This document shows positions 7,031 through 48,834 of a DNA stretch of 64,000 nucleotides, piece by piece; position 1 is the first letter of the stretch; each line of letters starts with the position of its first letter. Made by a program: the position numbers and the translations under genes. Below the pieces are notes generated by a model. The model was not told the DNA's origin and ran no database searches. It saw nothing but the letters and a program-made list of their open reading frames with translations. Source of the stretch: Halorubrum xinjiangense (lineage in GTDB: Archaea; Halobacteriota; Halobacteria; Halobacteriales; Haloferacaceae); contig NZ_FNBO01000005.1 in assembly GCF_900102375.1 (NCBI RefSeq), forward strand, positions 124,001 through 188,000, in the 5' to 3' direction.

Positions 7031-7047
7031 GTCGGCGAAGTCCCGGT

Positions 7048-7395
7048 CACTCACTTATAAATGATCGACCGCAGAGCGACGGTGAACATCACCGAAGCCC
7101 CGGTCGCTCGCTTATAAACGGTTGACTGTGGATCGGCGGCAAACACCTCCAAAGCCCCAGCCGCGAGGGACCCGTACGCTCGCTGTGCTCCTCGCTCAGT
7201 CACTACGCTCCTTCGCTGCGGTGCTTGGCGTCGCCTACGGGTCCCTCGCGGCTGCCCCTTTGAATCCCGCCCCGCACAGCAACCGCACCTCACACCTCCC
7301 CAGCCTCGCCGCTCGCGCCTTTATAAGGCGCTCGCGGCGTCCCTCGCGCGTGCGGTTCGCGCCCTTCGGGCGCTCACCGGCACGCGCCACCGCAG
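7048..7395 (+). repeat. Composite hairpin element, copy 1
   Basis: This fills the gap between the convergent thiL and thiolase genes. Two 57-bp modules start at 7048 and 7105 (period exactly 57), each with CTTATAA near one end and CCAAAGCCCC near the other. A long hairpin follows: arm 7150-7176 pairs with arm 7236-7262 (27 positions, all paired except a central CCC/CCC bulge) around a 59-base loop. The tail 7263-7395 contains two more stem-loops, one capped by TTTATAA near 7320 and one by CTTC near 7375. Related copies lie at 30254-30666 and 48050-48625. Confidence 0.85.
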
Positions 7396-29477: not shown

Positions 29478-30263
29478 ATGGATCTGACGGTCGCGATCAC
29501 CGGGGCAACGAGCGGGATCGGACGAGCCGTCGCCGAGGCGTTCGTCGACGAGGGGGCGTTCGTCGCCGTCTCCGGACGCGACGGCGCGGCCGTCGATCGG
29601 ACCGTCGCGGCGCTGAACGGCGAGGGCGGCGACTCCGGCGACGCGAGCGGCGATGGCGACGAGACGGATGACGGCGACGAGGCCGACGGCGGCTCGGCGG
29701 GCGAGGCCGGCACCGAGCGCGGCACCGCCTGGGGCGACCGCGTCGACGTGCGCGACGAGTTCGACCTCGAGCGCTTCTTCGAGCGCGTCGCCCGCGAGGC
29801 CGGCCCGGTCGACGTCGTGTTCGCGAACGCCGGCGTGTTCCACGGCGCGCCGGGCGAGCGGCCGACGACCGAGGTGGCGTACGCCGACTACGACGACACG
29901 ATGCGAACGAACGCGCGCGGCGTGTTCGCCACGATACGCGAGGCCGTTCCCCACCTCGCCGACGACGCGCGCGTCCTCGTCCCGTCGGGCGCGGTCGCGG
30001 CCGAGTCGAAGCCCGGGATGGGCGCGTACGCGGTCTCGAAGGCGGCCGCCGAGGCGGTCGCGCGTGGCTTCGCCGCCGACCTCGACGCGACGGTCGGCGT
30101 CGTCGACCCCGGCCTCGTCGCCACCGACCTCACCGGGAAGGAGCGCGCCCGCGACCCCGAGAGCGTCGCGCCGCTTTTCGTCTGGGCCGCCACCGAGGCG
30201 CCCGCCGAGGAGTTAAACGGCGAGCGGGTGGGGCTGCGCGAGTGGAAGTCCGCGACGCGATAA
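29478..30263 (+). CDS. Short-chain dehydrogenase/reductase with acidic insertion
   Basis: The 261-residue SDR has the Rossmann motif ITGATSGIGRAVAEAF, NAGVF, and the catalytic Ser...Tyr-x3-Lys in PSGAVAAESKPGMGAYAVSKAA, then VVDPGLVATDLTG. After strand 3 it carries about 35 residues of Gly/Asp/Ser/Glu (GGDSGDASGDGDETDDGDE) that normal SDRs lack, probably an extended surface loop. Substrate unknown. Its last codons run into the degenerate first module of the 57-bp array (copy 2). Confidence 0.88.
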   Translation: MDLTVAITGATSGIGRAVAEAFVDEGAFVAVSGRDGAAVDRTVAALNGEGGDSGDASGDGDETDDGDEADGGSAGEAGTERGTAWGDRVDVRDEFDLERFFERVAREAGPVDVVFANAGVFHGAPGERPTTEVAYADYDDTMRTNARGVFATIREAVPHLADDARVLVPSGAVAAESKPGMGAYAVSKAAAEAVARGFAADLDATVGVVDPGLVATDLTGKERARDPESVAPLFVWAATEAPAEELNGERVGLREWKSATR

Positions 30264-30666
30264 GACTGGATTACGTTCGGATCGGCGAGAGAGAGTGTTA
30301 CTGTCCCAACCGCTCGCTTATAAATGATTAACCAGAGGTCAGAGACGAACACCTCCAAAGCCCCAGTCGCTCGCTTATAATATCTGATCGCAGATCGGCG
30401 GCGAACACCTCCAAAGCCCCAGTCGGGAGGCGGGCGCACGCTCGCTGCGCTCCTCGGTCGCTCACTCCGTTCGCTCCCTGCGGTGCTTACGTCGCCTGCG
30501 CCCGCCTCTCGACTGCCCCTTTGAGTCCTCCCCGACTGCGACCGCACAGCAGCCTCACGCCTCCCCAGCCTCGCGGCTCCCTCCGCTTCGCTCCGGTCGC
30601 CGCGTCCCTCGCGCGTGCTCCTCGCGGCCGCCGGGGGCGGCCGCTCGCAGGCACGCGCCACCGCAG
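30254..30666 (+). repeat. Composite hairpin element, copy 2
   Basis: Modules start at 30311 and 30368 (57 bases apart), with a degenerate one at 30254 overlapping the end of the SDR gene; the module at 30368 is one base short. The main hairpin arms are 30412-30438 and 30497-30523; all 27 positions pair except the CCC/CCC bulge, one of them as G-T. The inner stem GGGAGGCGGGCGCA differs from copy 1 yet pairs with its own partner. Two more stem-loops follow, one with GCGGCCGCC facing GGCGGCCGC near 30625-30650. The element ends at CGCCACCGCAG. Confidence 0.85.
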
Positions 30667-30775
30667 TTGATATTTATAAGATATCGTCGCCCCGCTCGTC
30701 GGTATTTAAATATCGCATCGTCGATTCCGCGCTCGACCACCGAGAATTATCCCGCGGTCGGTCGAACAGGGGGGT

Positions 30776-48049: not shown

Positions 48050-48625
48050 GCGGTGGCGCGCGCCTCCGAGCGCCCATCGGGCGCGAGGAGCGCGTGCGAG
48101 GGACGCGGTGAGCGCTCGCAGAGCGCGAACCGCGAGGCTGGGGAGGCGTGAGGTGCGGTCGCGGTGCGGGGCGGGGCGGGGCGGGACTCAAAGGGGCAGT
48201 CGCGAGGCCGCAGTAGGCGTTCACGAGAGCGGAGCTCTCGTGAGCCAATCAGAACGCGAGGCGTTCTGATGACGACGTAAGCACTGGAAGGAGCGAACGG
48301 AGTGAGCGACTGAAGCGCGCAACGAGCGTACTGCGGCCTCGCGGCTGGGGCTTTGGTGGTGTTCGTCGTCGATCAGCAGGCATCTACGTATAGCCGAGCG
48401 GCTAGGGCTTTGGTGGTGTTCGTCGTCGATCAGCAGGCATCTACGTATAGCCGAGCGGCTAGGGCTTTGGTGGTGTTCGTCGTCGATCAGCAGGCATCTA
48501 CGTATAGCCTCGCGACTGGGGCTTTGGTGATGTCCACCGACGATCCGAGATCACCCATTTATAAACAACTGAAAGTGACCTTGGCTCTGTCACCTGTCGA
48601 TCTGCGTTCTATCATTTATAACTAA
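48050..48625 (-). repeat. Composite hairpin element, copy 3 (inverted)
   Basis: Read on the minus strand it is in the same order as copies 1 and 2. The module array (48341-48625) has five 57-bp units starting at 48341, 48398, 48455, 48512 and 48569; the second and third are identical and the first differs at few bases. The main hairpin arms are 48329-48355 and 48189-48215, with inner stem GCGAGGCCGCAGTA and one C-A mismatch besides the CCC bulge. The loop holds two extra perfect hairpins (48221-48243 and 48249-48269). The tail (48050-48188) has the two further stem-loops. Plus-strand reading of the array keeps a 19-residue repeat frame open. Confidence 0.85.
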
Positions 48626-48759: not shown

Positions 48760-48832
48760 GGGCCGGTGGGGTAGCTTGGTATCCTTCGGCCTTCGGGTGG
48801 CCGTAACCACGATTCAAATTCGTGCCGGCCCA
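48760..48832 (+). tRNA. tRNA-Pro (anticodon CGG)
   Basis: GGGCCGG (48760-48766) pairs with CCGGCCC (48825-48831), discriminator A. The anticodon arm is CGGCC-TTCGGGT-GGCCG, so the anticodon is CGG. The T arm is CACGA-TTCAAAT-TCGTG. A TTAAAAG box lies at 48729-48735, about 28 bases upstream. The last 13 bases of the tRNA and two more recur at 49694-49708, marking an integration target. Confidence 0.95.
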
Positions 48833-48834
48833 CT
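48820..48834 (+). repeat. att-like repeat a (tRNA-Pro 3' end)
   Basis: TCGTGCCGGCCCACT occurs here and, identically, at 49694-49708. It includes the tRNA acceptor strand. Confidence 0.75.

Follow-up and report, generated by a model that had tools for sequence, protein, structure and literature searches.

A dispersed intergenic repeat family of haloarchaea with three hairpins, freely varying stems and a covarying, strand-specific fold

The window considered here is the whole analysed stretch of 64,000 nucleotides (G000:C5:124001-188000), part of a 3.26-Mb draft genome of Halorubrum. It contains copies A (7048-7395), B (30254-30666) and C (48050-48625, inverted) of a structured element, and all three lie where the preliminary description had placed them. 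Their parts are listed below, with the hairpins assigned to the strand on which they are predicted to fold.

7048-7149, plus strand: copy A, tandem units of about 57 bp that contain TTATAA and end in (C)AAAGCCCCAG/GAAGCCCCGG (TRF: 7038-7158, period 57)
7150-7262, minus strand: copy A, main hairpin hp1, arms 7150-7176 and 7236-7262, with a loop (7177-7235) that is itself structured
7307-7339, minus strand: copy A, tail hairpin hp2
7346-7388, minus strand: copy A, tail hairpin hp3 (GGCGCGTGCC...GCACGCGC)
30311-30411, plus strand: copy B, two tandem units of about 56-57 bp (TRF)
30412-30523, minus strand: copy B, main hairpin hp1, arms 30412-30438 and 30497-30523, with orthologues in congeners
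30560-30664, minus strand: copy B, tail module, hp2 and hp3
30673-30679, no strand assigned: copy B, right-flank TTTATAA box a few nucleotides past the tail
48055-48146, plus strand: copy C, tail module (hp2, hp3)
48189-48355, plus strand: copy C, main hairpin hp1, arms 48189-48215 and 48329-48355
48220-48274, plus strand: copy C, nested 55-bp double-hairpin insert (TTCACGAGAGC..GCTCTCGTGAGCCAATCAGAACGC..GCGTTCTGATGACG) on the 5' side of the hp1 loop
48356-48533, minus strand: copy C, array of 57-bp units with 95% matches between units (TRF: 48341-48533)

A tRNA-Pro (CGG) gene at 48760-48833 on the plus strand, near copy C, is called by ARAGORN and is absent from the Rfam scan at the gathering threshold.

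The strand that folds is the complement of the one used in the preliminary description (hereafter the original strand). On the folding strand the order is 5'-hp3-hp2-hp1-(57-bp units)-3', and a Halorubrum copy reads GCGGT-hp3-GAGGGA-hp2-GAGGCTGGGGAGG-spacer-GGGYGGGACTCAAAG-hp1-CTTTGGAGGTG-(57-bp units)n. The base of hp1 is constant, CAAAG-GGG-CAG facing CTG-GGG-CTTTG with a GGG/GGG internal loop; in other families it is ACTGAAAGGGGC...GGGGCTTTC, and there hp1 is frequently an inverted head-to-head pair. It is followed by a variable stem of about 20 bp, either continuous or with a GAA/GA internal loop, which defines two classes. The loop above this stem is structured as well: 2-bp Watson-Crick steps and tandem G.A mismatches follow each other in turn, like the rungs of a ladder, up to the tip, which is a GNA triloop in 31 of 49 copies and GNNA in five. 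On the original strand hp1 is preceded by the tandem 57-bp units, the number of which varies among copies. Of 59 copies that were scored, 43 have a TTATAA box at a distance of 38 nt before hp1, and a TTTATAA box stands 5-8 nt from the tail in the right flank of many copies. A long reading frame in the unit (57 = 3 x 19) was considered and rejected, as the spacing departs from multiples of three in several copies.

Copies with different stems carry nested double-hairpin elements of small size (about 50-110 bp), whose own stems are variable too. These inserts sit in the linker between hp2 and hp3 and at two fixed sites in the hp1 loop; they are present in L002, L003, L009, L016, L026, L028, L044, L058, L059, L060 and copy C. 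The insert of the copy C kind occupies the same place of hp1 in L002, L009, L044 and L059.

The element had been presented as a three-copy one; the real count is about 159 per genome. The constant right-arm 16-mer CTGCCCCTTTGAGTCC occurs 159 times in the own genome with up to two mismatches, against two occurrences of the reversed-pattern control. With one mismatch it was found in 33 other genomes of the genus, at 5-176 copies each, and was absent from the congener G034 and from 24 genomes of other families. At least 150 copies lie on a congener chromosome that is assembled as one 3.0-Mb contig. G034 with no copy, and G018, G020 and G032 with 5-10, can be set against congeners with up to 176, and a comparison of gene content between low- and high-copy congeners could reveal what sustains the element.

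For the three copies of the window it had been claimed that the 14 bases following the constant base differ and nevertheless pair with their own far arm. This is correct: outside the CCC/CCC loop, which is constant on the original strand as had been noted, 24 of 24 positions are paired in copy A, while copy B has 23 pairs and one G-T and copy C has 23 pairs and one C-A. The larger samples were compared with shuffled controls, which ignore phylogeny and therefore make strong rather than formal tests. Over 61 own-genome copies with 42 distinct 14-mers, a mean of 12.34 positions pair with the own arm, compared with 9.88 +/- 0.16 after the right arms have been exchanged among copies (the highest of 500 shuffles reached 10.34). 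When hp1 is aligned over 49 copies of the own genome, standard pairs fill 94.3% of the pair cells (82.0% with reshuffled 3' letters), and double compensatory changes occur in 23 of 39 pairs, amounting to 207 cells where 66 are expected; none of 500 shuffles reached this value, and slid partners are paired in less than 45%. The same holds for 69 matches in named haloarchaeal records, an alignment that was fitted to a covariance model and is thus biased toward it: 89.7% of cells are paired (66.0 when shuffled), 33 of 39 pairs are doubly changed, and 537 cells stand against 161 expected (0/500 shuffles).

Both tail hairpins behave likewise, in agreement with the preliminary description. Double changes are found in 10 of the 17 pairs predicted for hp3. 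The lower stem of hp2 has 6.54 of 7 positions paired (4.49 shuffled, maximum 5.17 of 1000); it was tested separately, since RNAalifold on the tail missed hp2 owing to misaligned length variants.

Covariation is also observed among orthologues at fixed loci. At locus A, the gap between thiL and an acetyl-CoA acyltransferase gene, 16 matches (a set that takes in damaged copies and L073, the latter matched on both strands) have 98.6% of cells paired and 20 of 39 pairs doubly changed (0/500 shuffles). At locus B, 12 matches, including L340, again matched on both strands, have 96.0% paired and 22 of 39 pairs doubly changed (0/500 shuffles). The fold is therefore kept in place. Two outcomes that would have spoken against a selected structure, non-compensatory changes in a genome-wide alignment and arms that match through recent inversion of one of them, can be dismissed: the changes are compensatory, and double changes in most pairs of many copies exclude the inversion. 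We thus uphold the view that changing sequence with kept pairing indicates a selected fold.

The choice of strand is supported by several observations. On the complement strand, in class I copies and with a symmetric choice of columns, G.U pairs number 34 and A.C combinations 4 (p = 6e-7); without the most wobble-rich pair the counts are 25 and 5, and order-wide they are 87 and 16. The complement strand has the lower predicted free energy in 49 of 49 copies, whether RNA parameters are used (-71.8 vs -59.9) or DNA ones (-37.4 vs -33.5). The internal loops are tandem G.A and G.G on this strand and C.T and C.C on the original one; the G.A and GGG/GGG loops stay unpaired in nearly all copies and genera.

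These observations bear on two explanations that do not involve a single strand. The element could be a double-stranded DNA site, i.e., a cruciform that serves as an architectural or recombination landmark and is recognised by a chromosome protein; a density of about one copy per 20 kb, the intergenic position and the occurrence in both orientations would suit it. A cruciform uses both strands alike, whereas the wobbles and the stable internal loops are confined to one of them, and the copy number ranges from 0 to 176 between congeners, so we hold this explanation to be improbable. Still less probable, in our opinion, is neutral correction of palindromes, in which template switching keeps the arms complementary with no selection. 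Template switching is known to perfect quasi-palindromes, and flipped hairpins in the genome G007 (L340 and L073) suggest that recombination between arms does happen; but such correction would also erase the mismatches of the GGG/GGG and G.A loops, and it would be expected to leave the two strands alike. From the sequence evidence we firmly conclude that this dispersed repeat family, which extends through the whole order, has a strand-specific fold that selection maintains.

As to the form of the folded strand, RNA or DNA, we lean slightly toward single-stranded DNA on account of the GNA tips, which are known to be stable as DNA, the low fraction of G.U (3-4.5% of pairs) and the want of a consistent promoter for the folding strand. 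Tandem G.A motifs suit RNA and DNA alike.

As to the flipped hairpins, in both L340 (about 1997-2131) and L073 (1-132) the inner part of hp1 is inverted relative to its flanks, and the former GGG/GGG loop now pairs; this may be either a natural arm-to-arm inversion or an assembly artefact. In L066 and L045 (11140-11247) hp1 is deleted from the stem to a matching stretch of the 57-bp unit, which suggests repeat-mediated deletion.

A covariance-model search had been proposed as a check, and it extends the family well beyond Halorubrum. The model R1, built on hp1, has matches in 111 of the family's 148 sampled genomes, spread over 21 of 28 genera, and in 171 of 243 genomes of the order (60 of 78 sampled genera). 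In a sample of the phylum 16 of 120 genomes have a match, every one inside the order, and about 101 genomes outside the order gave none. A related 15-mer, GGGACTGAAAGGGGC, is found in named records of Haloarcula, Natrinema, Natronococcus, Halorussus, Haladaptatus, Halobaculum, Halovenus and others; a few exact bacterial matches, as expected by chance, were left out. Carriage by viruses is unsupported: among the 31 viral loci that bear the 15-mer, which were the ones scanned, none has a model match.

All 30 copies in 464 kb with home-made gene calls lie between genes. Ten are flanked by genes in the direction of the original strand, nine by genes in the opposite direction, seven by convergent and four by divergent genes; in this sample the contexts resemble those of all gene junctions, and no preference for gene orientation is seen. 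A transcription terminator, a leader or a 3' UTR repeat was accordingly rejected, there being no preference for gene 3' ends or orientation. Along the chromosome the copies take either strand at random: the runs test gives z = 1.5, and the two-domain bias is 34 where shuffling gives 30.2. The same figures speak against a replication-strand effect.

Individual loci are retained vertically and are also lost. At locus B ten congener loci have the element in the same gap, nine of them in the same orientation; L339 is this gap with no element, and L340 has its hairpin inverted with respect to the flanks. At locus A there are losses or partial deletions in L074, L077 and L066, that of L077 being a loss. 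Orthologous copies share up to 97% in close species; overall, their similarity is 0.803, compared with 0.795 and 0.780 for non-orthologues, the former value being that of different loci of one species. Orthologues are thus hardly more alike than paralogues, which points either to very fast compensatory drift or to conversion between copies.

In our opinion the best explanation, to which we give about an even chance, is one family of non-autonomous dispersed structured repeats across the haloarchaeal order, in which the folded single strand is selected. The functional form would be the strand complementary to the original one, folded into three hairpins. The element would spread and persist as a mobile or recombining repeat, and its propagation, or its recognition by a protein, would depend on the fold and not on the sequence. 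Only foldable copies would then persist and seed others, and each locus would be renewed again and again by ectopic conversion between copies. Such fold-dependent propagation or recognition is what we infer as the reason why the fold is kept.

The main competitor is a family of structured RNAs that serve the host: each copy would be a transcript of the complement strand, or a part of one, whose fold is selected for binding a protein or for a role in cis or trans, and a genome would have many such paralogues. Covariation at orthologous positions, the bias of G.U over A.C, conservation across the order, and tandem G.A and GNRA-like tips, which are classical RNA motifs, all agree with it, and the persistence of paired copies at orthologous loci is explained by a host function no less well than by selfish spread. 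Nevertheless, we consider it rather doubtful and favour the fold-dependent repeat, because the copies ignore gene direction (and direction along the chromosome), are singly dispensable, their loci being easily lost, and lack a promoter at a constant position for the folding strand. The right-flank TTTATAA box would start transcription inside hp3; the TTATAA box before hp1 might act as a promoter, but for the other strand, whose fold is the poorer one. The small share of G.U pairs also argues against RNA. A broader wording of the host-side proposal, that these are order-wide archaeal folded RNAs (or single-stranded DNA hairpins), numbering as many as about 160 in a genome and built on a (2 bp + tandem G.A)n ladder with GNA tips and a GGG/GGG junction, with free stems, a fold held by selection at the locus and a host function so far undescribed in archaea, we put forward tentatively, as a possibility short of probable.

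Marks of mobility were looked for on the side of the fold-dependent repeat. Like a MITE, the element is short, non-coding, multi-copy and intergenic. The nested inserts, the empty gap at L339 and the loss at L077 also resemble the behaviour of non-autonomous mobile repeats. In other genera, TIR-like inverted repeats GGTACTGTTCAG bound four inverted pairs (L156, L215, L321 and L322), where 7 of 8 flank bases match at offsets optimised in the search, and L151 has GCGGTCGG on both sides, as read by eye. In degenerate form the end pattern is GGTACTGTT(C/T)AG. These signs come from five old copies, all outside Halorubrum, and from a search over offsets; in Halorubrum itself neither TIRs nor target duplications were recognised. 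At the solo TIR sites of G118 (L315, L316, L318 and L319), where the reading frames were read by eye, no parent transposase sharing this TIR could be recognised.

A more specific route of mobility is that of a palindromic element of the IS200/IS605 type (PATE- or REP-like), which a Y1 (HUH) transposase or a RAYT would move in the form of single-stranded DNA. Hairpins of the folding strand with GNA tips fit this route, as do the Haloquadratum PATEs, the near-terminal palindromes of which are invaded by SMR-A repeats of about 110 bp (PMC3119063); the nested inserts described above resemble these repeats. We find it unlikely, because five congeners that lack a Y1_Tnp gene (G016, G028, G019, G005 and G002) hold 58-100 copies each. 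Moreover, a Y1_Tnp gene is present in G034, where the element is missing, some relatives have TIRs and flanking duplications that PATEs lack, and there is no strand bias along the chromosome. A Y1 or RAYT partner was rejected on the evidence of the same five genomes.

With respect to known systems, the earlier remark that no named haloarchaeal element of this kind is known agrees with our searches of Rfam and of the open-access literature. The Rfam scan of the window gives no family at the element; its one match at the gathering threshold is a tRNA, and the best sub-threshold match at copy A has 15 bits, the cut-off being 45. No description was found in the open-access literature on the sequence and on haloarchaeal repeats, and the archaeal set of RepRanger includes no haloarchaeon. 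Some copies may possibly have been mentioned before as anonymous repeats.

REP/BIME, ERIC and BOX are dispersed intergenic hairpin repeats of bacteria, with tens to hundreds of copies per genome and largely conserved stem sequences; BOX is modular and has a variable number of a middle repeat, which parallels the variable 57-bp units. The present family differs from them in that the stem sequence is free and only the pairing is kept, and in that it shows no dependence on RAYT or Y1. By analogy, attC sites of integrons are also similar: their bottom strand folds and is recognised by structure, and the stem sequence varies freely. The tandem G.A and GGG/GGG features and the location of copies between ordinary genes distinguish our element from attC.

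Together with these bacterial repeats, the PATEs, MITEs and SMR-A repeats of Haloquadratum, described in the text of PMC3119063, come closest among published elements. They too are haloarchaeal, transposase-free, multi-copy and palindrome-bearing, and small inverted-repeat elements are inserted there in the palindromes of other elements. PATEs are presented in that text as short near-terminal palindromes related to IS605 ends, with no flanking duplication; a covarying G.A-ladder hairpin of about 110 nt and a tail with hp2 and hp3 are not among the features that it gives for them. The class I intergenic repeats of the halovirus HF2 (56-58 bp, with a TATA box; PMC8707807) are similar to the 57-bp units in size, in the TATA box and in belonging to Halorubrum biology, but they are viral, have no large hairpin, and their motif TCTTTAAGTC is unrelated in sequence. 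The 58-bp HF2 promoter repeats were for this reason rejected as the source of the units.

The family would be the most abundant covarying nucleic-acid fold in an archaeal genome known to us. It spans an order that includes genera with laboratory models, it is unannotated in Rfam, and it gives annotators an explanation for many haloarchaeal intergenic regions. Since the stem is free and the fold is kept, the question why dispersed hairpin repeats persist (as selfish elements, as structural RNA or as chromosome landmarks) can be answered directly by experiment.

A minor observation concerns the base of hp1, which is surrounded by four conserved G-tracts (complement strand, GGGYGGGACTSAAAGGGG-hp1-GGGG, e.g., 7140-7273); judging from their arrangement, they could form a candidate quadruplex-duplex junction.
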